Origin: Diadema setosum | Taxonomy: Eukaryota > Echinodermata > Echinoidea > Diadematoida > Diadematidae | Direction of reading: 5' to 3' | Length of the DNA stretch: 64,000 nt | Assembly: GCF_964275005.1 (NCBI RefSeq) | Contig: NC_092692.1 | Location: 14,453,584 to 14,517,583 of the forward strand | Shown here: positions 614-63,592 of the stretch, in pieces | Numbering within the stretch: the first letter of the stretch is position 1 | How the letters are laid out: every line of letters starts with the position of its first letter | Position numbers and translations under genes: made by a program | Notes under the pieces: model-generated | What the model was told of the DNA's origin: nothing | Databases searched by the model: none | What the model saw: only the letters and a program-made list of their open reading frames with translations

Positions 614-1966
614 CTATAAGCAGGGAGGTGTTACAGAGATGGAGTGGCAACTCTTCGTAATTCATCCAAACACATGTTTGGGTTGAAGGCGTTACGATGG
701 GATGTCTAGCATTCCATTACGCTTTGAAGTCATGCTCGGCACCGCTCTGGTTTGCAAGACGAAGTTCAGAGACGAAGAACGCATTTCACCTTTCGTTGAA
801 TTACAAGTTTTATTTCACCGTAAAATTTTTAATGAAATACTCGAATTGATTTAGAATAGTTTAGGAAAGAATTCAATATCATAAACATGTATTTCTAGTT
901 TCTTCGTAATGCGCAAATCAAAATGAAATGAAAATTGTCTCTTAGGCCCTCTTAAAATCCTAATATTTTTCTATAATGCGCATATTTGTGCATGTTAGTT
1001 TTTTAATCTTTTAATCTGGGATATTTTGATCTTTCAAATACAGTACTCCGCTAAAGCGTATTCCAGCGTGCTTTTGAACTATTTGCTGTTAAAATTATTA
1101 GTTTTACACTGCATTTTGGTTCGCTGCTCCAATTCAAGTTACACAAATTCATTGTTGCCATCACATTGAAAGAGAGAGCGAATTGCAGTAGGGGCAAGTA
1201 TTTCTAGATGTGAAAGCGCTAGTCCCGATTATTGATGCCCTCTTTTGTCAAAGCACATGGGTAACACCTGTAGTTGAACGCATAACTTCTCGGCGGCGCC
1301 GCGCATGACTTCAAAGGAGAACAGTAGTTGTCTCTCCTTCTCTAGGACCCCGTTTACAGTGCGAGGCTCGGCCGCGGCCGAGCCGCGGCCGAGCCCAGCC
1401 CCGCTTCAGTGTAAACGCGCAAAAGGCCAAATGCGAGGCCAAAATTGGCCTCGCATTTGGCCTCGCTCTGGAGGTGGTCTCGGCTGTGGCCGAGCCGCGG
1501 CCGAGCCCTGCCTCTTCTTGGTGTAAACGCAAACTGGGCCAATTGCGCGGCCAATTGCGCGGCCAATTTTAGTCTGGCTTCCAAACCCTCTGCCTGTATC
1601 TTTCGCTATTCAGGATATTAACCCCCTCAACGTCGAAAACTAGTATAGTTTAAGGTGGTTTTGTCCTGCAAAGGATTTTTTCCTTCGGCAAAGGCCTTTG
1701 CCCGAACGGCGACTTCGTCGCCACGGAATTCATTTGGCAAAGGGTCTGAAAACCAGACAATACAAAATTGCGTTTGTTTACAAGCAGAGCGCCACTACGA
1801 CAAAATATTGAAAGGTTTGAATCAAAAGCGCGGCCGAGCCCAGCAGTGTAAACGGACAAAATTGCGAGGCTCGGCCGCGCAATTGAGGCCGGACTCGGCC
1901 GCGGCCGAGCCGCGGCCGAGCCCGGCCCGGCACTGTAAACGGGGTCTAGCACCTCCCTGCTATAAG
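614..1966. mobile_element. Long copy of the CAGGGAGGTG-ended, 7-bp-TSD transposon
   Basis: The element runs 621-1959 (1339 bp). It starts CAGGGAGGTG (621-630) and ends with the exact reverse complement CACCTCCCTG (1950-1959). It is flanked by perfect 7-bp duplications CTATAAG at 614-620 and 1960-1966. Sequence from 621 to about 1345 matches, in reverse complement, the copy at 40597-41319. The remainder (1346-1946) is a second transposon inserted near the right end. No transposase is recognisable, so it is non-autonomous. The restored empty site contains the palindrome TTATAGC-7nt-GCTATAA (599-619). CAG...CTG ends resemble hAT and P-type elements, but a 7-bp duplication is unlike hAT (8 bp); superfamily not assigned. 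Confidence 0.88.
1343..1949. mobile_element. Nested GC-rich element, 17-bp TIR, TAG duplication
   Basis: The element 1346-1946 has perfect 17-bp inverted ends GACCCCGTTTACAGTGC and is flanked by TAG (1343-1345, 1947-1949). The related copy at 40597-41319 shows the empty site: the host sequence reads through CTCTAG to CACC with one TAG. The interior is rich in repeats of CGGCCGAGC and has several internal GTGTAAACG motifs near 1413, 1520, 1843 and 1931. A 3-bp duplication fits a PIF/Harbinger-like element, but TAG is not the usual TWA site and no transposase is present. Confidence 0.8.
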
Positions 1967-3864: not shown

Positions 3865-4295
3865 ATCAAATACACAATTCTTCCAATACTCATCTAGCTT
3901 ATTCTTAAAAGCATTAACAGAGCACGCCGAGACTACATCTTCTGGAAGAGAATTCCACATATCGACCACTCTGATGGCAAAAGAAAAAAAAAGTTCTGAT
4001 CCTCATATCCAATCTAGCATAGCTTCATTGAGTGACCACCAGTCCCCCACCACTGTTACGACTCAACATGTCAAACTTAGTTTGATAATGACCATGAAAA
4101 TATTTGTACACATCAATCATGTCCCCTTTTTTCGCCTGTAACTGAGAGATGGTAGGGATGACGCAAACGATTAGAGTACGACAAATGACTAATTCCTGGA
4201 CTCATTTTAGTGGCCCTTCTTTGAACACTTTCGGGTCTCCTTAGCTCCCCCCAGTTTGAATGATGACCACACAGCCTGACCGTATTCCAATGCCT
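3865..4295 (-). pseudogene. LINE reverse transcriptase, degenerate C-terminal fragment
   Basis: Minus-strand translation, with frameshifts, gives pieces typical of the region after the RT domain in CR1/L2-like LINEs: LEYGQAVWSS, then VQRRATKM, then GDMIDVYKYFHGHYQTKFD, then a terminal FKN(R/K)LDEYWKN stretch. There are several stops and frame changes. This is a 5'-truncated, decayed insertion. It is more divergent from the LINEs at 10-18 kb than those are from each other, so it is probably another subfamily. Confidence 0.75.
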
Positions 4296-9813: not shown

Positions 9814-9866
9814 ACTGAACCAAGGAGGTACTCGCGTAGGCGAGCCTAGTACCTCCTTGACTGAAC
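9814..9866. mobile_element. 39-bp hairpin element with perfect 7-bp TSD
   Basis: The element 9821-9859 starts CAAGGAGGTACT and ends with a near reverse complement AGTACCTCCTTG. It is flanked by ACTGAAC at 9814-9820 and 9860-9866. The ends are a variant (CAAGGAGGT) of the CAGGGAGGT family. The restored empty site is itself a hairpin: GCCGCA (9809-9814), an 8-nt loop, then TGCGGC (9869-9874). Confidence 0.85.
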
Positions 9867-19985: not shown

Positions 19986-19991
19986 GCATCG

Positions 19992-21147
19992 TGTCACAAA
20001 TGTACACACAAGTAGTTATGTACATGCATCAAGGCTGTATGCATGGTTGTTTTAATGTGTCTGTACACAGGTGGACCAGAATAATGGAGAACATTCTATA
20101 TGATATAGATATAGCACATACAGGCTGACCAGATCAGTGGAGAATTTTCTACATGGTATACAATGTAGCTACAGTACATTTATGCATGTGACAGGAAATA
20201 CATTATAGCTCACTCAATCTAGAATGATTTAACCCATTCCAGAAAATTCTAGGAAGTGCTTACATATTTGGCTGAGTGAGGCACTGTCCCTGTAGACCAA
20301 TGTGATTGGTAGTTTATTTTGGCAATGATGTTATACACATAGTTAGACAGTGAGTCATCCAGGATTCCTTTAATTTGGACTTGCTAGTATGTTCAGGTAT
20401 GTGGCCCAAGGTTGGAGAAAATTACAGAATGTACTAGAAAGGGGTGAATGGATAGTATATAAGCTGGAGAAATTCTGCAGTAGGCAGAGTACCCAACACC
20501 TCTGCTCTGAGAGTTACGTCACTTCTGGCTCTGAAGCGACTTGTTATAGTCAGTCCTGTGTTACCTGCTGACCTGCTATACAAATTGTGTTTGTGGAGAT
20601 AAGGCATGGGAGACATTTTGCCTGCAGAGAATTAACTTGCCTACATTGGAGATAGACTCCATATTTTAATGTCAACGGACATTGTTACGGCAAAGCGGTG
20701 ACCGGCTGGATTCCTAGCTGGACAATATAAAGTGAATCATCATTCAACGCATCAACTGGACGTGGTCGTCATAACGTTTGGATCCTGCACGCTTCGCTGT
20801 GGACGTATATCCTGGATCCTTACCCCGGATTAATACCGAGGATTATCACAACCTGCGCCTCTGGATTTACGTCTGAGGTATCATTCATCGGTGCATCGCG
20901 GATCATTCAGCTGTGCATTGAACATCGTATCTGGACACTGTCAAAGGATTACTTGCTTTCAAATTTGGCTGTGGTGCATGTAAGTGACTCCATTACTGAT
21001 TTATAATTGTTTCTATTGATCATTATTGTACTGATGTGAAAACCGATTACCAGTCTGTACCCACAATATCACTGTTAATAAACCGCCTGAACATCAGTTG
21101 ATTGTTTCTTTTGTGCGATCATTCTCAGAGTGATTTTGGTCGTAACA
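19992..21147 (+). repeat. 5' LTR
   Basis: 1156 bp, TG...CA ends. TATATAAG at 20456-20463 is the probable promoter TATA box, and AATAAA at 21077-21082 the probable poly(A) signal. This implies U3 up to about 20487 and a long R of about 600 bp. Confidence 0.92.
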
Positions 21148-21151
21148 AAAT

Positions 21152-21169: not shown

Positions 21170-21286
21170 TTGAATTTAAAGCCAAACTTAGAATTTGGAA
21201 CGTTCCGGAACCTAGAATATTGGTACATACAAAATACCAGTTGAGTTGATTGTTCAATTGTATATTGTTTGTAATATATTGTGACA

Positions 21287-24200
21287 ATGTCAATCAGTAG
21301 AATGGATGTTCAGGCATTTGTTCAGAGGACAGATTTGTCCCTCAAAGATTTGCAAAGGTTACGCAAATGTGATTTGACTGCTATTGCACAGCATTTGAAT
21401 GTTGATGTTCCACAAGGTGTAAGAAAGGCAGAAATTCTTGACTTAGTAGCTGGTCACATGGAGCTCAAAGAAGAAACTCAAACTTCAGATCAAGCTCAAA
21501 TGTCTGATCAAACACGGCTTGAGCTTGCTAAAATGGAAATGGAGAAAGAGAAGATGAGATTAGAAAGAGAGAGGGAGAAAGAACAAAAAGAACTGGAAAT
21601 GAAGAAACTTGAAATGGAACAGAAGAAATTTGAAGTGGAGCAACAGGTGAAATTGCGTGAGATGGAAATGGCTCATGCACACACTGTTGGAAATCGTGAA
21701 AGGGCTCCCCCTGAATTTGATTTGTCCAAAAACATTCGATTGGTGCCAAAGTTTGAGGAAAACAGAGTCGATGCATATTTTGTGTCATTTGAGAAAGTGG
21801 CTAACAGTTTGAACTGGCCGCAGGAATTTTGGCCCTTGCTCCTTCAAAGTGTGTTTGTCGGCAAAGCTGCTGATGTGTACTCATCTCTCTCTGAAGAGCA
21901 ATCACGTGACTATGCTACAGTCAAGAAGGCAATGTTGAATGCTTATGAGTTGGTGCCAGAGGCGTACAGACATAAGTTCAGAAATTCGTACCGCAAACCA
22001 GGCCAGACACATGTTGAGTTTGCTCGTGAAAAAGAAATGATGTTTGATAGGTGGTACAGATCCTTGAAAGTGGATCAGGATTTTGATAACCTACGTGAGG
22101 TTGTTCTCTTGGAAGAATTCAAAAAGAGTGTTGCTTTCAGTGTGAGGTCGCATTTGGATGATCACAAAGTGACAAGTTTGCATAGGGCAGCCTTGATGGC
22201 TGATGAGTATGAGCTGACCCACAGAAATGACAACAGACCACCTTTCAGGAATTTCTCTGGAAATAAGAGAGACAAAAATCAGTCGAGCAATCCAAAGAAT
22301 GCTGGTCCTGAAAAAGGCACGAGTTCTGAAACTTCATCGGCACCAAAGCCTCAATCTGACAAAGGGTCCAGTACAAGTGCAAATGTCATCAAATGTTTTC
22401 ACTGTAACAAGACAGGGCATGTAAAGTCACAGTGTTGGAAGTTGCAAAACAAAACAAAGAAGGACATGGGATTTGTCATGTCAAAAAGTGTCCTACCCGA
22501 AAATAGTGTCCCTTTCAGTGAAACACAGGCCATTGAAAGTCGATCTCCCAAATTCAAAGATAGGCTGAAGCAGGTGGATGAGAGCTATCGTAGCTTTTTG
22601 TTTGATGGTGAGGTGACCCCATGTACTTCTGGTGAGGCAGGTAAACCAGTAGTCATCCTGGGGGATACGGGGGCCTCTCAGTCGTTGATGGTGGATGGTG
22701 GTATGACTTTTCCACCAGATAGTGCAGTGAATGCAAAAGTCTTGATTCAGACTGTTGATGGCAGTCATATGTCAGTTCCACTGTATAGAGTGGATTTGAA
22801 GTGTGACCTAGTTTCTGGTCCTGTGACTGTTGGAGTTGTTCCTGAGTTGCCCATGGTAGGCATTGACTTCCTGTTGGGGAATGGCTTGGCTGGGGACAAG
22901 GTGGTTGCGTCTCCAGTTGTTACGGATAAACCAGTGGTGGTTGCTGAAACTGAGCAGTTGCAGGAGGAGTTTCCTGGGATTTTTCCAGATTGTGTTGTGA
23001 CTAGGTCTCAAGCTCGTAGAGCTGTTCAAGATGATGCGGATTCTGTTGATGTGGAGGAGAATTCCGGTGTTTGGTTGGCAGAAACCTTTTTCAAGGATTT
23101 GAATGATGGGGTTGCTGTATTAGGCTCCGAGGCTAACAGTGATGGGCTGTTTAGCAAGTCTTCCTTGGTTGAAGCACAGCAGGCAGACTCTGAGTTGAAA
23201 GGCTTGTCTCAGACGGCGTGTTCTGAGGCTGAGGCCGAAAAGGTCCCTGAGCGCTATTATGTCAAAGATGGCATTTTGATGAGGAAGTGGAGACTAGCTC
23301 CCCATAGGCCAGCTGATGACGATTGGACGGTGGTCCGTCAAGTTGTTGTCCCTCCCAGTTACCGCGGTGAGATCTTGAGGATTGCTCACGAGTTACCTGT
23401 TGGCGGCCATTTAGGCGTCAGAAAGACAAAGGATCGGATCATGAGGCATTTCTATTGGCCAGGGTTGAATGTGGATGTGGCTGAGTTTTGCAAGACTTGT
23501 CACACATGTCAGGTGGCTGGTAAACCACAGCATTCAGTGAAGCCGGCGCCATTGATTCCGATACCTGCGTTTGAAGAACCATTCAGTCGGGTTCTAGTTG
23601 ACTGTGTTGGACCTTTGCCTGGGACTAGGTCGGGTCATAAGTACCTCTTGACAATCATGGATATGTCTACACGGTTTCCAGAGGCTATCCCATTGAGAAA
23701 TATCACTGCTAAGACTGTGGTAGATGCTCTAGTGCAGTTTTTCACTAGGTATGGGTTGCCCAAGGAAGTGCAGTCTGACCAAGGGTCAAATTTCATGTCA
23801 GGCATATTTCAAGAGGTGATGTATCGTTTGGGTGTGAAGCAGCTTAAGTCATCAGCTTATCATCCCCAATCCCAAGGTGCGTTGGAGCGCTACCACCAGA
23901 CCCTAAAGACAATGATTAGGACATTCTGTGAGGAGTATCCCGAGGATTGGGATAAGGGCATCCCTTTCCTGCTGTTCGCAACGAGGGACTCCCCAAATGA
24001 GTCGACGGGTTTCAGCCCATTTGAGTTGGTGTACGGTCATGAAGTTAGGGGCCCACTGAAGCTCATCAAAGAGAAATTCATGACTGAGGATGATGAGGTC
24101 CACCTACTTGACTATGTGTCAAAGTTTCGTGAAAGGCTTTCAAAGGCTTGTGAGGTAGCTAGGGAACACTTGAAAGTGTCACAAGACTCTATGAAGAGAA

Positions 24201-24436
24201 AGGCAGACAAAAATGCCAAAGCCCGAACCTTCAAACCAGGTGACAAAGTTCTTGTACTGCTGCCCATACAAGGTGAACCACTGAAAGCCAAGTTCAGTGG
24301 TTCATACTGTGTCAAAAAGAAACTCAATGAAGTGAACTATGTGATCAGCACACCAGACAGATGCAAAGGACAGAGAATGTGTCATGTCAATATGTTGAAA
24401 GAGTGCTATGACAGAAAGTCAGTTGGTGTGACATAG
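21287..24436 (+). CDS. Gag-protease-integrase polyprotein without RT/RNase H
   Basis: 1049 aa from ATG at 21287 to TAG. Residues ~1-55 are a helical N-terminus and ~70-135 a highly charged coiled coil. About 140-310 is a capsid-like Gag region (PKFEENRVDAYFVSFEKVA, FRNSYRKPGQTHVEFAREKE). The CCHC zinc knuckle CFHCNKTGHVKSQC sits near 365-378 and the aspartic protease motif LGDTGAS near 455-461. After a linker (VVTRSQARR) integrase follows: an HHCC zinc domain (H-x5-H...CKTCHTC), catalytic Asp in VDCVGPLP, Asp in SDQGSNF, Glu in GALERYHQ, then a C-terminal SH3-like segment (FKPGDKVLVLLP). RT and RNase H are absent and the frame ends cleanly. It could supply particles and integrase but would need RT in trans. 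Confidence 0.93.
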   Translation: MSISRMDVQAFVQRTDLSLKDLQRLRKCDLTAIAQHLNVDVPQGVRKAEILDLVAGHMELKEETQTSDQAQMSDQTRLELAKMEMEKEKMRLEREREKEQKELEMKKLEMEQKKFEVEQQVKLREMEMAHAHTVGNRERAPPEFDLSKNIRLVPKFEENRVDAYFVSFEKVANSLNWPQEFWPLLLQSVFVGKAADVYSSLSEEQSRDYATVKKAMLNAYELVPEAYRHKFRNSYRKPGQTHVEFAREKEMMFDRWYRSLKVDQDFDNLREVVLLEEFKKSVAFSVRSHLDDHKVTSLHRAALMADEYELTHRNDNRPPFRNFSGNKRDKNQSSNPKNAGPEKGTSSETSSAPKPQSDKGSSTSANVIKCFHCNKTGHVKSQCWKLQNKTKKDMGFVMSKSVLPENSVPFSETQAIESRSPKFKDRLKQVDESYRSFLFDGEVTPCTSGEAGKPVVILGDTGASQSLMVDGGMTFPPDSAVNAKVLIQTVDGSHMSVPLYRVDLKCDLVSGPVTVGVVPELPMVGIDFLLGNGLAGDKVVASPVVTDKPVVVAETEQLQEEFPGIFPDCVVTRSQARRAVQDDADSVDVEENSGVWLAETFFKDLNDGVAVLGSEANSDGLFSKSSLVEAQQADSELKGLSQTACSEAEAEKVPERYYVKDGILMRKWRLAPHRPADDDWTVVRQVVVPPSYRGEILRIAHELPVGGHLGVRKTKDRIMRHFYWPGLNVDVAEFCKTCHTCQVAGKPQHSVKPAPLIPIPAFEEPFSRVLVDCVGPLPGTRSGHKYLLTIMDMSTRFPEAIPLRNITAKTVVDALVQFFTRYGLPKEVQSDQGSNFMSGIFQEVMYRLGVKQLKSSAYHPQSQGALERYHQTLKTMIRTFCEEYPEDWDKGIPFLLFATRDSPNESTGFSPFELVYGHEVRGPLKLIKEKFMTEDDEVHLLDYVSKFRERLSKACEVAREHLKVSQDSMKRKADKNAKARTFKPGDKVLVLLPIQGEPLKAKFSGSYCVKKKLNEVNYVISTPDRCKGQRMCHVNMLKECYDRKSVGVT

Positions 24437-24763
24437 GTAGTGGATAGCACAGTAGAAGTTAAGGGTGAAAAGTTTTCACTTCAAATCACATGTACAGTGT
24501 TTAGCTTATCCATTATCGATGTATGCAATTTGAGTTTGACATGATTGTATAAGCTCCAAGAATCCAAGCAATATCAATGTAAATGGTATCCATGAAAAGA
24601 GAACATGGAATTAATGCAGCTATTCAAAGGGCATGTGATAGTATGTGATTATTGTTGCTTGACTTGGATTGTACCTCACATTCATTGTAAATAGCAATGA
24701 CAAAGTGTGAAGGTAAAAGAAACCCTTGCTACGGCAAGGCTTTCTTTTTCCCATGGGGGATGG
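24437..24763 (+). other. Non-coding tail where RT-RNase H would be
   Basis: In Gmr1-like elements RT and RNase H follow integrase. Here 327 bp separate the integrase stop from the 3' LTR, with no RT motif in any frame. It ends in a purine tract, GGGGGATGG, adjacent to the LTR and likely serving as the polypurine primer. Confidence 0.75.
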
Positions 24764-25916
24764 TGTCACAAATGTACACACAAGTAGTTATGTACATGTA
24801 TCAAGGCTGTATGCATGGTTGTTTTAATGTGTCTGTACACAGGTGGGCCAGAATAATGGAGAACATTCTATATGATATAGATACAGCACATACAGGCTGA
24901 CCAGATCAGTAGAGAATTTTCTACATGGTATACAATGTAGCTACAGTACATGTATGCATGTGACAGGAAATACATTATAGCTCACTCAATCTATAGAATG
25001 ATTTAACCCATTCCAGAAAATTCTAGGAAGTGCTTACATATTTGGCTGAGTGAGGCACTGTCCCTGTAGCCCAATGTGATTGGTAGTTAATTTTGGCAAT
25101 GATGTTATACACATAGTTAGACAGTGAGTCATCCAGGATTCCTTTAATTTGGACTTGCTAGTATGTTCAGGTATGTGGCCCCAGGTTGGAGAAAATTACA
25201 GAATGTACTAGAAAGGGGTGAATGGATAGTATATAAGCTGGAGAAATTCTGCAGTAGGCAGAGTACCCAACACCGCTGCTCTGAGAGTTACGTCACTTCT
25301 GGCTCTGAAGCGACTTGTTATAGTCAGTCCTGTGTTACCTGCTGACCTGCTATACAAATTGTGTTTGTGGAGATAAGGCCTGGGAGACATTTTGCCTGCA
25401 GATAACTTGCCTACATTGGAGATAGACTCCATATTTTAATGTCAACGGACATTGTTACGTAAAGCGGTGACCGGCTGGATTCCTAGCTGGACAATATAAA
25501 GTGAATCATCATTCAACGCATCAACTGGACGTGGTCGTCATAACGTTTGGATCCTGCACGTTTCGCTGTGGACGTATATCCTGGATCCTTATCCCGGATT
25601 AATACCGAGGATTATCACAACCTGCGCCTCTGGGTTTACGTCTGAGGTATCATTCATCGGTGCATCGCGGATCATTCAGCTGTGCATTGAACATCGTATC
25701 TGGACACTGTCAAAGGATTACTTGCTTTCAAATTTGGTTGTGGTGCATGTAAGTGACTCCATTACTGATTTATAATTGTTTCTATTGATCATTATTGTAC
25801 TGATGTGAAAACCGATTACCAGTCTGTACCCACAATATCACTGTTAATAAGCCGCCTGAACATCAGTTGATTATTTCTTTTGTGCGATCATTCTCGGAGT
25901 GATTTTGGTTGTAACA
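24764..25916 (+). repeat. 3' LTR
   Basis: 1153 bp, collinear with the 5' LTR. Differences include a 2-bp insertion (CTATAGAATG at about 24993), a 4-bp deletion in the GCAGATAACTTGCC segment, and about 20 scattered substitutions. It ends TTGTAACA and is followed by the ATCG duplication. Confidence 0.92.
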
Positions 25917-25980
25917 ATCGACTCCACCCCTTGTATACCTAGTTCGTTTCAGTTTGTCTCATTTCCCTGCTTTGTGATTT

Positions 25981-30886: not shown

Positions 30887-30920
30887 GTGAAAGCAGGGAG
30901 ATGAACCTCCCTGATGAAAG
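30887..30920. mobile_element. 20-bp hairpin element, near-perfect 7-bp TSD
   Basis: The element 30894-30913 is CAGGGAGATGAACCTCCCTG. It is flanked by GTGAAAG (30887-30893) and ATGAAAG (30914-30920), 6/7 matching. It is one of the shortest members of the CAGGGAGGTG family, with a loop of about 2-4 nt. It lies in intron 3 of the METTL27-like gene. Confidence 0.75.
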
Positions 30921-33379: not shown

Positions 33380-35770
33380 CTTAACTCCGGGAGTCAGTGG
33401 CGTATCTTGGGGGGGGGGGCAAGGGGGGCACGTGCCCCGGGCGCCACTCCTTGGGGGCGCAAAAAACGAAAAAAAAAAAACGAAGAAGAAGAAAAGAAAA
33501 AAGAAAAGAAAAGAAGAAGAAGAAGAAGAAGAAAAAAAAACTCGGCCGGAAAAAAAAGGGGGGGGGGGGGGGACAGAGAATGGTTGGGGGGGGGGGGCAA
33601 AAAACCAAATCAAACAAGATAAAAACAAAACACGATGATGACGCGGACAAAATGACAATGTTTATTGTGTTCACACAAGAATTCCATATTCCGTAAGCTG
33701 AAATAAAAAAATTTTCGGCTCGCTCGCTGCGCTCGCTCGCCAAAGTTTATATAAAAAAGAAGGTAAGAACAAAACGTGATGATGACGCGGACAAAATGAC
33801 AATGTCTATTGTGTTCACAGTTGTCATTTAATATTTAGCAGGTAAAATGTTTCACTGAGCAGCGGCTGCAATTTCTTTCGTTCTGAAGCGATCGCCAATT
33901 GGATCAAAAGACGCCAACGGTTTCGAACATTCGGGGGGGGGGCGCAAAAAAAAATCAAACAAGATAAGAACAAAACGTAATGATGACGCGGAAATATACA
34001 AATTTCGTCTCACTCGCTCGTACTAATTTAGAGTATTTTTTTCAAGTCCTCAGTTTGTTGATATAAATCGTTATCTATAAGGCCGTCACTATATCTTGAT
34101 TAGAATTGTAAGATTTAATAAGCAAAAAATGACAAGAGTTCCATGTTTAGTAAGCTGAAATACAAAAATTTTCGGCTCGCTCGCTGCGCTCTCTCGCCAA
34201 AATTTATCAAAAAAAGGAAGAAGAAGATAAGAACAAAACGTGACGATGACGAGGACAAAATGACAATGTCTATTGTGTTCACAGATGTCATTTAATATTT
34301 AGCAGGCAAAATGTTTCACTGAGCAGCGGCAGACGCGTTCTTTCGTTCTGAAGCGATCGCCGATTGGATCAAAAGAGGACGCCAACTGTTTCGAACATAC
34401 GGGGGGGGGGGCGCAAAAAAAAAAGACAAATCAAAAAAGATAAGAACAAAACGTAATGATGACGCGGAAATGTACAAATTTCGGCTCACTCGCTCGTACT
34501 AATTTAGAGTATTTTTTTTCAAGTCCTCAGTTTGTTGATATAAATCGTTATCTATAAGGCCGTCACTATATCTTGATTAGAATTGTAAGATTTAATAAGC
34601 AAAAAATGACCAGAGCTCTATGTTTAGTAAGCTGAAATACAAAAATTTTCGGCTCGCTCGCTGCGCTCACTCGCCAAAATTTATCAAAAAAAGGAAGAAG
34701 AAGATAAGAACAAAACGTGACGATGACGAGGACAAAATGACAATGTCTATTGTGTTCACAGATGTCATTTAATATTTAGCAGGCAAAATGTTTCACTGAG
34801 CAGCGGCTGACGCGTTCTTTCGTTCTGAAGCGATCGCCGATTGGATCAAAAGAGGACGCCAACGGTTTCGAACATACGGGGGGGGGGGGCGCAAAAAAAA
34901 AAGACAAATCAAAAAAGATAAGAACAAAACGTAATGATGACGCGGAAATGTACAAATTTCGGCTCACTCGCTCGTACTAATTTAGAGTATTTTTTTCAAG
35001 TCCTCAGTTTGTTGATATAAATCGTTATCTATAAGGCCGTCACTATATCTTGATTAGAATTGTAAGATTTAATAAGCAAAAAATGACCAGAGCTCTATGT
35101 TTAGTAAGCTGAAATACAAAAATTTTCGGCTCGCTCGCTGCGCTCGCTCGCCAAAATTTATCAAAAAAGGAAGAAGAAGATAAGAACAAAACGTGACGAT
35201 GACGAGGACAAAATGACAATGTCTATTGTATTCACACATGTCATTTAATATTTAGCAGGCAAAATGTTTCACTGAGCAGCGGCAGACGCGTTCTTTCGTT
35301 CTGAAGCGATCGCCGATTGGATCAAAAGAGGACGCCAACGGTTTCGAGCATACGGGGGGGGGGGGGGCGCAAAAAAAAAGACAAATCAAAAAAGATAAGA
35401 ACAAAACGTAATGATGACGCGGAAATATACAAATTTCGGCTCACTCGCTCGTACTAATTTAGAGTATTTTTTTCAAGTCCTCAGTTTGTTGATATAAATC
35501 GTTATCTATAAGGCCGTCACTATATCTTGATTAGAATTGTAAGATTTAATAAGCAAAAAATGACCAGAGCTCCATGTTTAGTAAGCTGAAATACAAAAAT
35601 TTTCGGCTCGCTCGCTGCGCTCACTCGCCAAAATTTATCAAAAAAAAAAAGGAAGAAGAAGATAAGAACAAATCGTGACGATGACGAGGACAAAATGACA
35701 ATGTCTATTGTGTTCACACATGTCATTTAATATTTAGCAGGCAAAATGTTTCACTGAGCAATTAAATGAC
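33380..35770. repeat. Tandem array, period about 475 bp, in intron 1
   Basis: Each unit has a G10-14 run then GCGCAAAAAA (33942, 34411, 34889, 35367), a CAAATTTCGGCTCACTCGC stretch, then GTAAGCTGAAATACAAAA followed by CTCGCTCGCTGCGCTC (about 33697, 34150, 34628, 35105, 35582), then CACTGAGCAGCGGC. Spacing is 469-478 bp. The three central units are nearly identical; the first (from about 33380) is diverged and the last is cut at about 35758. Apparent open frames here are repeats of low-complexity residues. Confidence 0.9.
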
Positions 35771-38518: not shown

Positions 38519-38572
38519 CATGGAGCAGGGAGGTGGTTCTCACCTCCCTGCATGGAGCTATTGTAGCTCCAT
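38519..38572. mobile_element. 25-bp hairpin element in a palindromic site
   Basis: The element 38526-38550 has perfect 10-bp ends CAGGGAGGTG / CACCTCCCTG and a 5-nt loop GTTCT. It is flanked by CATGGAG (38519-38525 and 38551-38557). Right of it, ATGGAGCTA-TTG-TAGCTCCAT (38552-38572) is a perfect palindrome that includes the target duplication. It lies in intron 1 of the METTL27-like gene. Confidence 0.9.
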
Positions 38573-38700
38573 ATGGTTGTACTTTAGATAGAAATATAAA
38601 TCCGTTTCCAATCCTCGCATGTCTGTTTTGAATGGCAGACGAATGTAACACACTGCGCATCCCTCGAAAGCCTGGGCCCCACAAGTTTGAAATGGTTTAC

Positions 38701-38829
38701 CTGGTCATAGGTGTTCACCCATTGACTATATTGCTTGATCTCCTGTTCATGCGTCTCGGCGTGGATAATAGCGCCTAGTCGAGATCTTGCCTCGATTTGG
38801 GCGGCATGGTCAGTGGCGGCAGTCTCCAT
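38701..38829 (-). CDS. METTL27: METTL27-like methyltransferase, exon 1
   Basis: ATG at 38829 starts METAATDHAAQIEARSR, followed by ...EIKQYSQWVNTYDQ and donor GTAAAC. The Y-x-x-W-x-x-x-Y-D motif is the N-terminal signature of METTL27-type methyltransferases. The join to exon 2 is phase 0 across a 5.9 kb intron that holds the tandem array and the Harbinger derivative. A 20-bp hairpin transposon (38847-38866) and its duplication lie only 10 nt upstream of the ATG. The enzyme is a predicted cytosolic SAM-dependent methyltransferase; its substrate is not evident from sequence. Confidence 0.85.
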
Positions 38830-38839
38830 CGTCTGGTAA

Positions 38840-38873
38840 CTTGGACCAGGTCTTCTCACCTCCCTGCTTGGAC
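38840..38873. mobile_element. 20-bp hairpin element just upstream of the METTL27-like start
   Basis: The element 38847-38866 reads CAGGTCTTCTCACCTCCCTG: full right end, deleted left end, and the TTCTCACCTCCCTG block also seen at 38526-38550. It is flanked by perfect CTTGGAC duplications (38840-38846, 38867-38873). The near duplication is 10 nt upstream of the ATG of exon 1, probably in the 5' UTR. Confidence 0.85.
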
Positions 38874-39012
38874 CAAACGAGTTCTCTTCTTCGCTTCAGT
38901 TCATCCAGGGAGCCTGGTTCAGCACACCAGTTTGACATGGATGTCACGATTTCAGAGGGTACACATTGTGAGAAGCTACAGTAGTATTCGGTAGATTGTA
39001 CTGTATAGGAAT

Positions 39013-39051
39013 AGTTTACATAAGGAGGTGCGTGATACCTCCCTAGTTCAG
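39013..39051. mobile_element. Degenerate hairpin element
   Basis: 39020-39044 (core AAGGAGGTGCGTGATACCTCCCT) has flanks AGTTTAC and AGTTCAG that match at 5 of 7. It is probably an older member of the CAGGGAGGTG family. Confidence 0.5.
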
Positions 39052-40589: not shown

Positions 40590-41326
40590 GATAAACCTGA
40601 GAGGTGCTAGAGAAGGAGACAACTACTGCTCTCCTTTGAAGTCATGCGCGGCATCGCCGAGAAGTTATGCGTTCAGCAACAGGTGTTACCCATGTGCTTT
40701 GACAAAAGAGAGCATCAATAATCTCGACTAGCGCTCTCACATCTAGAAATACTTGCCCCTACTGCAATTCGCTCTCTCTTTCAATGTGATGGCAACAATG
40801 AATTTGTGTACCTTGAATTGGAGCAGCGAATCAAAATGCAGTGTAAAACTGACAATTTTACAGCAAATAGCTTAAAAGCACGATGGAACACGCTTCAGCG
40901 GAGTACTTTATTTGAAAGTTCAAATATACCAGAATAAAAGATAGAAAACTAACATGCGGAAATGTGCGCATTATAAAAAAAAAAAATAGGTTTTTAAGAG
41001 GGCCTGATTTTCATTTCATTTCGATTTGCACATTACAAAGAAACTAGAAATACATGTTTATAATATTGATTTTTTTCCTAAACTATACTAAATCAATTCC
41101 AGTATTTCATTTAAAATTTTACGGTGAAATAAAGCTTGTAATTCAACGAAAGGTGAAATGCGCTCTTCGTCTCCAAACTTCGTCTTGCAAGTAGAGCGGT
41201 GCCGTGCATGACTTCGAAGCGTAGTGAATGGTAGACATCCCATTGTAACGCCTTGAACCAAAACATGTGTTTGCATGAATTATGAAGAGTTTCCACTCCA
41301 TCTTTGTAACACCTCCCTGGATAAAC
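40590..41326. mobile_element. Second long copy of the 7-bp-TSD transposon
   Basis: The element 40597-41319 (723 bp) ends CACCTCCCTG (41310-41319) and starts CTGAGAGGTG, two mismatches from the perfect end. Flanks are identical GATAAAC at 40590-40596 and 41320-41326. It is the reverse complement of 621-1345 plus 1950-1959, so it represents the element without the nested GC-rich insertion. No transposase motif is present. Confidence 0.9.
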
Positions 41327-41737: not shown

Positions 41738-41788
41738 ATCGGAGCAGTCCCACCTCCCTGCTCAGAGCCCTTCATTACAAGGGCTCTG
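41719..41788. mobile_element. 16-bp truncated element between two palindromes
   Basis: CAGTCCCACCTCCCTG (41745-41760) keeps the full right end and only CAG of the left. Flanks ATCGGAG and CTCAGAG match at 5 of 7. Immediately left is GTAGAGCCG-AA-CGGCTCTAC and immediately right CAGAGCCC-10nt-GGGCTCTG (41763-41788), both near-perfect hairpins. Confidence 0.55.
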
Positions 41789-45743: not shown

Positions 45744-45784
45744 CAGGGAGGTGGTCCAGGGGATTTGATTTTCTCATCTCCCTG
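45744..45784. mobile_element. 41-bp hairpin element without clear TSD
   Basis: It begins CAGGGAGGTGG and ends CATCTCCCTG, with a loop of about 20 nt. The 7-bp flanks (TCAAAAA, AACTCGG) do not match, so either the target duplication decayed or one edge is rearranged. Confidence 0.6.
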
Positions 45785-53990: not shown

Positions 53991-54048
53991 ATCAAACCAA
54001 AGAAGTACTAGGCGAGCTCGCTTACAAGCAGTACCTTCTTGATCAGAC
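53991..54048. mobile_element. 44-bp hairpin element, 6/7 TSD
   Basis: The element 53998-54041 begins CAAAGAAGTACT and ends AGTACCTTCTTG with GGCGAGCTCGC at the centre. It is closely similar in layout to 9821-9859 (both have GTACT/AGTAC and a GGCGAGC core). Flanks ATCAAAC and ATCAGAC match at 6 of 7. Confidence 0.75.
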
Positions 54049-55880: not shown

Positions 55881-55921
55881 GTACCAGCAGGGAGGTGGAA
55901 ATGCCACCTCCCTGGTACTAT
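55864..55921. mobile_element. 27-bp hairpin element
   Basis: 55888-55914 has perfect 11-bp ends CAGGGAGGTGG / CCACCTCCCTG around AAATG. Flanks GTACCAG and GTACTAT match at 5 of 7. The left flank belongs to the palindrome CTGGTA-12nt-TACCAG (55864-55887). Confidence 0.75.
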
Positions 55922-56480: not shown

Positions 56481-56541
56481 GTAGTTGAACAAGGGAGGTT
56501 GATCCTACTCTCCCAGTTGAATAGAGTTATGCATAAACTAC
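56481..56541. mobile_element. 25-bp element with perfect 7-bp TSD in a hairpin site
   Basis: 56490-56514 begins CAAGGGAGGTT and ends ACTCTCCC, an imperfect inverted pair. Flanks are identical AGTTGAA (56483-56489, 56515-56521). The empty site is GTAGTT-17nt-AACTAC, whose left arm overlaps the duplication. Confidence 0.75.
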
Positions 56542-58681: not shown

Positions 58682-58730
58682 CTTGGATCAGGGAGGTGGA
58701 AGAGAGCCTCTTTCACCTCCCTGCCTGGAT
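58682..58730. mobile_element. 35-bp hairpin element, 6/7 TSD
   Basis: 58689-58723 begins CAGGGAGGTGGAAGAG and ends CTCTTTCACCTCCCTG. Flanks CTTGGAT and CCTGGAT match at 6 of 7. Confidence 0.8.
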
Positions 58731-60651: not shown

Positions 60652-60707
60652 CTCATACCACGGAGGTGGGAAGAGATGAAGTTCATCTTCCACCTCCCTG
60701 CTTACAG
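60652..60707. mobile_element. 42-bp hairpin element
   Basis: 60659-60700 begins CACGGAGGTGGGAAGATG-like and ends CATCTTCCACCTCCCTG with a perfect inner stem (GATGAA-GTTCATC). The flanks match poorly (4 of 7), so it is likely an older copy. Confidence 0.6.
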
Positions 60708-63533: not shown

Positions 63534-63592
63534 ACCATGGAGCGACAGCATGGTTACACCAGGGAGGTGGCTTTCCACCTCCCTGGTTACAC
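63534..63592. mobile_element. 26-bp hairpin element with perfect 7-bp TSD
   Basis: 63560-63585 is CAGGGAGGTGG-CTTT-CCACCTCCCTG, with perfect 11-bp ends and a 4-nt loop. Flanks are identical GTTACAC (63553-63559, 63586-63592). The left duplication abuts the palindrome ACCATG-9nt-CATGGT (63534-63554). It lies 58 bp from exon 1 of the secreted-protein gene, inside its first intron. Confidence 0.9.

Follow-up and report, generated by a model that had tools for sequence, protein, structure and literature searches.

The locus at 38519..38557 of the 64,000-nucleotide stretch of Diadema setosum DNA analysed here (the window) consists of a 25-bp hairpin (38526-38550) placed between two identical copies of the heptamer CATGGAG (7/7 flanks), and it raises the question of whether a unit of this size was itself transposed or is what a longer element left behind. 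The hairpin joins a left stub of 10 nt to a right stub of 15 nt, the split being read from the sequence. An earlier note on this DNA had described such hairpins as nano-transposons, possibly mobilized at 16–44 bp, with the collapse of longer insertions as the alternative. Our analysis points instead to P-type excision scars with an apparent 20-nt stagger, closed by microhomology-mediated end joining, a reading to which we assign a probability of roughly 0.87.

Thirteen hairpins in the window were scored for flanking 7-bp duplications, of which five matched at 7/7, three at 6/7 and three at 5/7, the remaining two having no convincing duplication (0/7 and 4/7). Besides the locus described above, perfect duplications border the scars at 9814..9866 (hairpin 9821-9859, ACTGAAC), 38840..38873 (hairpin 38847-38866, 20 bp, CTTGGAC), 56483..56521 (hairpin 56490-56514, 25 bp, AGTTGAA) and 63553..63592 (hairpin 63560-63585, 26 bp, GTTACAC). 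The 39-bp core at 9821-9859 corresponds, in a comparison by eye, to a recurrent 34-bp core with five extra bases, CGCGT, and the hairpin at 38847-38866 retains about 16 nt of the right end and only 4 nt of the left. Duplications matching at 6/7 border the scars at 30887..30920 (hairpin 30894-30913, 20 bp, GTGAAAG/ATGAAAG), 53991..54048 (hairpin 53998-54041, 44 bp, ATCAAAC/ATCAGAC), the left half of which, compared by eye, departs from the 20-nt end CAAGGAGGTACTAGGCGAGC by two substitutions, and 58682..58730 (hairpin 58689-58723, 35 bp, CTTGGAT/CCTGGAT). At 5/7 there are a probable scar at 55881..55921 (hairpin 55888-55914, 27 bp, GTACCAG/GTACTAT) and two probable eroded scars, at 39013..39051 (hairpin 39020-39044, 25 bp) and at 41738..41767 (hairpin 41745-41760, 16 bp, with a left stub of 3 nt). 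The coordinates, sizes and duplications given for these eleven sites in the earlier note, including the five perfect, three 6/7 and three partial ones, all proved correct. Added to its list are a 42-bp hairpin at 60659..60700, with an unsupported duplication (4/7), and a 41-bp hairpin-like pair of ends at 45744..45784, without duplication (0/7).

A strict scan of the window, requiring exact TIR prefixes and a duplication of at least 6/7, returned 6 scars, whereas all 20 permuted-TIR controls gave 0. Mutated ends escape such a scan, as at 56490-56514, where neither end is perfect (CAAGGGAGGT and CTCTCCC). Exact pattern sites number 5 in the window, where the genome-wide average would predict 0.30 (Poisson 1.6e-5), and three hairpins crowd into about 520 bp (38526-39044); this clustering is only suggested, windows not having been randomly sampled.

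In the 912.7-Mb assembly, the pattern CARGGAGGT-N(2-25)-ACCTCCYTG, taken from the earlier note, occurs at 4,272 sites, against 1 for the reversed-pattern control, and the same ends separated by a longer loop, N(26-55), occur at 351 (reversed control, 1). Flanks were compared at 49 sites, 5 from the window and 44 from among the 50 sites listed first on contig 1; the two L015 sites included here represent a single insertion copied within a duplicated stretch. The two flanks of a site matched at 7/7 in 27 cases, at 6/7 in 8, at 5/7 in 6 and less well in 8, whereas mismatched pairings of flanks from different sites (n = 2,352) gave 7/7 once and 6/7 29 times. The matching therefore exceeds chance, bearing out the description of the flanks as duplications in the earlier note, and by these 49-site counts both duplications are kept around remnants of both ends. 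One of the eight low-scoring sites, L028, has a perfect 8-bp duplication, and duplications of this length are also found at L075 and L080. Forty distinct perfect duplications yield the target consensus GT-N3-AC (G1 in 25, T2 in 33, A6 in 33 and C7 in 22), the symmetry of which is a property of the column consensus only, within-site pairing of positions being no higher than in shuffles.

The hairpins are insertions into a once continuous target, as demonstrated in one case, L012, where a 38-bp scar lies within a copy of a 723-bp MITE also present in the window, in the order GTTCAAG, hairpin, GTTCAAG. In the two window copies of this MITE the same place is uninterrupted and holds the 7-mer once (GTTGAAG or GTTCAAG; GTTSAAG), from which it follows that L012 gained 38 + 7 bp. 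The MITE occupies 40597-41319 (span 40590..41326, strand -) between perfect 7-bp duplications GATAAAC; the second copy lies at 621-1959 (span 614..1966, strand +) between perfect duplications CTATAAG, its MITE part being 90% identical to the first. Both long elements carry the terminal 9–10 bp of the hairpins, in agreement with the kinship to longer family members proposed in the earlier note.

A genome search with the 723-bp MITE gave 882 first-look candidates, 40 of which were scored, with 39 others at 90–93% identity. The 723-bp element is thus high-copy and non-coding, with shared ends and duplications, and is a MITE in a sense in which the hairpins are not. Its left end is retained to 14 nt or more in only 3 scars, so that the numbers of this abundant element and of the scars are poorly matched, and the MITE is at most the parent of those 3 scars. 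Within the copy at 621-1959, a nested insert at about 1347-1946, with ends GACCCCGTTTACAGTG and CACTGTAAACGGGGTC and TAG on both sides, looks by eye like another short inverted-repeat element. Three pairs of distant ends considered as long window elements (51542/55914, 28762/29722 and 30486/32510) were rejected as chance partners. Elsewhere in the genome, a 2.9-kb stretch at L007:2050-4940 lies between CTCAGTC repeats; its left end is CAAGGAGGCTTACTTCG, its right end is odd and broken by a 24-bp hairpin, and it has no open frame above 89 aa.

The extent to which the ends are retained was determined in the best-sampled subfamily, using the first 100 listed of the 289 genome-wide copies (148 + 141) of its 20-mer end, CAAGGAGGTACTAGGCGAGC. 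The opposite end follows within 30 bp in 77 of the 100. Among the other 23, which were read singly, a second duplication of at least 6/7 was detected by script in 8 and by eye in 3 more (L085, L086 and the right end in L071), and was absent from 12. Eleven of these twelve, compared pairwise past nucleotide 20, have no common 10-mer and are identical at 11/20 positions or fewer; the first 6 bases past nucleotide 20 of the twelfth, used as a query with up to 2 mismatches, matched 6 other places, which are hairpins or a stub with filler. Past nucleotide 20, then, the sequence varies by place in the first 100 listed copies, the opposite end excepted. A full-length family would be expected to leave common sequence there; among these 100 of 289 copies, neither a shared element continuing beyond the 20-mer nor a full-length parent with these ends was recognized, and the parents of the subfamily are either very rare, lost or among the other 189 copies.

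The same limit is seen in one-sided scars (L111, L112 and L117), which keep 20 nt of one end but just 0, 2 or 3 nt of its counterpart, the stubs passing directly into the second duplication. A further 20-nt stub, L116, sits by eye in a copy of a recurrent 46-70 bp unit, much as the L012 hairpin is inserted in the MITE. Two candidate longer elements suggested by neighbouring 20-mer ends, of 6.2 kb (C6:22295152-22301316) and 304 bp (C5:8702049-8702352), turned out to be separate scars or a stub. Other hairpin subfamilies carry the ends CAAGGAGGTATGAGAGAAC and CAGGGAGGTGGRAAGAGA.

The way in which the two ends are joined was analysed at 86 distinct listed sites of the CAAGGAGGTACTAGGCGAGC subfamily. 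At 56 of these the junction is simple, the 20-mer being followed by exactly j nucleotides of the opposite end, with j = 14 in 23, 18 in 14, 13 in 6, 16 in 4, 7 in 3, and 9, 10 and 19 in 2 each. Within the range 7–20, only j = 7, 13, 14, 16 and 18 offer 1–2 nt of complementarity to the 3'-terminal GC of the 20-mer, and 50 of the 56 junctions fall on these 5 of 14 positions (binomial 1.1e-16; 49/55 and 2.7e-16 with one duplicated locus dropped), 37 of them on the two positions with 2-nt microhomology. These binomial values assume equal likelihood for the 14 positions and independence of the sites, assumptions that hold only approximately, and the bias was measured on the same data from which the 20-nt end was derived. 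The other 30 sites hold substituted versions of the simple products or contain filler; the filler AAGGAGGTAT at C2:39520947 resembles the terminal repeat and may have been templated by it. Microhomology, filler and one-sided trimming, the features of end joining, are thus all present in this one subfamily.

A cut-and-paste element belonging to the P superfamily, or P-like in action, can account for these features; it would insert with a 7-bp GT-N3-AC-like target duplication and, on departure, have its non-transferred strand cut by the transposase about 20 nt inside each end. Each flank would then be left with a 20-nt single-stranded 3' tail of terminal inverted repeat, and microhomology-mediated end joining, probably of a polymerase-theta-like type, would link the tails, trimming them and adding some filler. 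The expected product is a duplication, up to 20 nt of the left end, any filler, up to 20 nt of the right end and the second duplication, and a 16–44 bp hairpin would be the residue of a departed element, which could no longer be excised in the same way. The 38-bp palindrome that recurs in the genome, CAAGGAGGTACTAGGCGAGCTCGCCTAGTACCTCCTTG, would correspond to two 20-nt tails annealed through their last two bases, and the 34-bp core to pairing of the terminal GC with the inner GC at 15–16. Both cores lie at junctions predicted by terminal-GC annealing and are therefore likely to be favoured repair products. From these patterns we infer that a parent element existed, that its transposase was of P type and which repair pathway acted.

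P-type excision junctions have been described in flies, at single engineered sites. According to PMC2895639, donor flanks cut by Drosophila P transposase bear 3' tails of 17 nt, and end-joined excision sites retain up to 17 nt per end and both 8-bp duplications, with short (2-nt) microhomologies and templated filler; one product, joined at AT by a 2-nt microhomology, was recovered in 14 isolates. The sea urchin scars resemble these products in keeping both duplications and no more than one tail per terminal repeat, in their microhomology or templated filler and in having a recurrent near-palindromic product. They differ in an apparent tail of 20 nt and a duplication of 7 bp, compared with polymerase-theta-joined tails of 17 nt and a duplication of 8 bp, and in comprising thousands of natural sites rather than laboratory products of one site. 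That a known P stagger is 17 nt and not 20 counts against the P-type reading.

Galileo, a member of the P superfamily, is closer in its target, its descriptions (PMC2775673 and PMC4168063, in the portions available) giving 7-bp and sometimes 8-bp duplications with the consensus GTANTAC, as symmetric as GT-N3-AC. Galileo differs in its long, variable terminal repeats and known copies, in contrast to scars without a linked parent or transposase, and footprints are absent from those portions of its descriptions. The high-copy, non-coding P-type MITEs of Anopheles gambiae, with ends like those of P elements, are comparable to the 723-bp MITE, although the excerpted account (PMC1562414) gives them 8-bp duplications and terminal repeats of 27–31 bp, as opposed to 7 bp and about 10 matching terminal bases here.

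The genome contains 52 matches to PF21787, the P RNase H domain, against 0 in 14 control genomes, and two open frames combine P HTH, RNase H and GTP-binding domains. For one P transposase of the genome, the closest named relative belongs to the sea cucumber Holothuria leucospilota (55% identity across 63% of the query). An exact CARGGAGGT was found at none of six fetched transposase loci (about 1.5 kb on either side of the match), and one locus extended to 10.1 kb contained neither CARGGAGGT-type ends nor any TIR with a 7–8 bp duplication. Separately, two P-transposase loci, on C6 (L067) and C18 (L068), covered also by L098, L099, L119 and L120, are 98.5% identical to each other over 9.4 kb; the likeness extends to the end of the fetched DNA, placing the borders beyond it.

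It is unlikely, though worth weighing, that the maker of the scars was a transposon of some other superfamily whose cuts likewise produce long 3' tails. Such an origin would suit the lack of a transposase linked to the ends, at six loci and in one 10.1-kb stretch, and duplications of 7 bp where 8 bp is usual for P elements (PMC7776569 and PMC1562414, in part). A long stagger, indicated here indirectly by retained ends that stop at 20 nt, is nevertheless unusual, the 17-nt P stagger being called unusually long and a mark that distinguishes P elements in the consulted part of PMC7776569, and Galileo combines P-superfamily membership with an equal duplication length and a similar target (PMC2775673 and PMC4168063, as excerpted).

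Transposition of the hairpins themselves, the 38-bp palindrome or hairpins generally being cut and pasted as one of the smallest transposed units, draws on the identical cores with different duplications that the earlier note had suggested looking for. Such cores exist: the 38-bp palindrome has different flanks at all 10 fetched loci (seven at 7/7, two with perfect 8-bp duplications read directly from the fetched sequence and one at 6/7), the 34-bp core has different flanks at 4/4 (three at 7/7 and one at 6/7), and no longer parent was found among the first 100 listed of the 289 CAAGGAGGTACTAGGCGAGC copies. Their recurrence can, however, be explained by repair, since 50 of 56 simple junctions occupy the positions that overhang microhomology predicts, the two cores included. 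Many other cores contain filler or a single stub, and a mobile 38-bp unit does not fit right stubs of 0–3 nt, filler, an insertion that looks templated or a limit of 20 nt; 20-nt staggered cuts at both ends would, moreover, cover the entire 38-bp unit. The longer recurrent units in the N(26-55) tail, of 48 bp (11 loci fetched) and 46-70 bp (9 loci), have flanks in common within each group, five loci of the 48-bp group sharing only the right flank with the rest, and are therefore scars or pieces carried by larger repeats. Mobilization at 16–44 bp thus goes unsupported and is very improbable.

Internal deletion derivatives are common among P-type elements, and both ends are kept in the hairpins, as would be the case if replication slippage or aborted gap repair had gradually shortened longer insertions that were never excised. 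Slow deletion of this kind should give many end lengths, whereas the first 9.08 Mb of contig 1 contain 50 pattern sites of up to 43 bp and only 4 of 44–73 bp, 3 of the latter within amplified repeats. It also leaves unexplained why none of the first 100 listed copies keeps more than 20 nt of the end and why the junctions are set by the last two bases of the 20-mer, and we consider it to have little chance of being correct. The collapse of longer insertions envisaged in the earlier note was close to right as to outcome; the route proposed here is transposase excision with end joining. Somatic programmed excision caught in the assembly, to which the lack of intact parents among the first 100 listed of 289 copies of the sampled subfamily would lend itself, is scarcely credible, since the scars carry point changes and imperfect duplications and have been copied with their flanks (L083/L084, the two L015 sites and the loci of the 48-bp unit), and so are inherited and of mixed age.

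If the hairpins are P-type excision scars, the genome holds a natural archive of thousands of P-type excision junctions, and sequence alone could reveal the distance of cleavage and the preferred modes of end joining in an animal germline, vanished elements included. New here are the scale of the phenomenon, the limit of 20 nt and the missing parents, a nano-transposon being unnecessary; judged by title, no publication among those listed in literature searches reports natural genome-wide P-type scars or such smallest transposons. More tentatively, at somewhat less than even odds, the source of the scars may be a ghost transposon: a P-type family cutting with a 20-nt stagger, of which at least 4,000 inherited scars survive but few or no full-length copies of the scar-making subfamilies, in which case the genome would record the movement, cleavage geometry and host repair habits of an element without the element itself. 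In a bolder form of this reading, a 38-bp palindrome may still be mobilizable. The scars also carry a warning, in that identical short cores with different duplications, commonly accepted as proof of transposition, can be independent repair products.

Among the window's open frames are LINE reverse transcriptases and a Gypsy-type polyprotein, the latter encoded at 21275-24436 (1,053 aa) between direct repeats at 19988-21148 and 24760-25917, which are 1.16 kb long, 97.7% identical and probably LTRs. A tandem array at 33693-35760 is built of 4.4 copies of a 477-bp unit with 95% matches.
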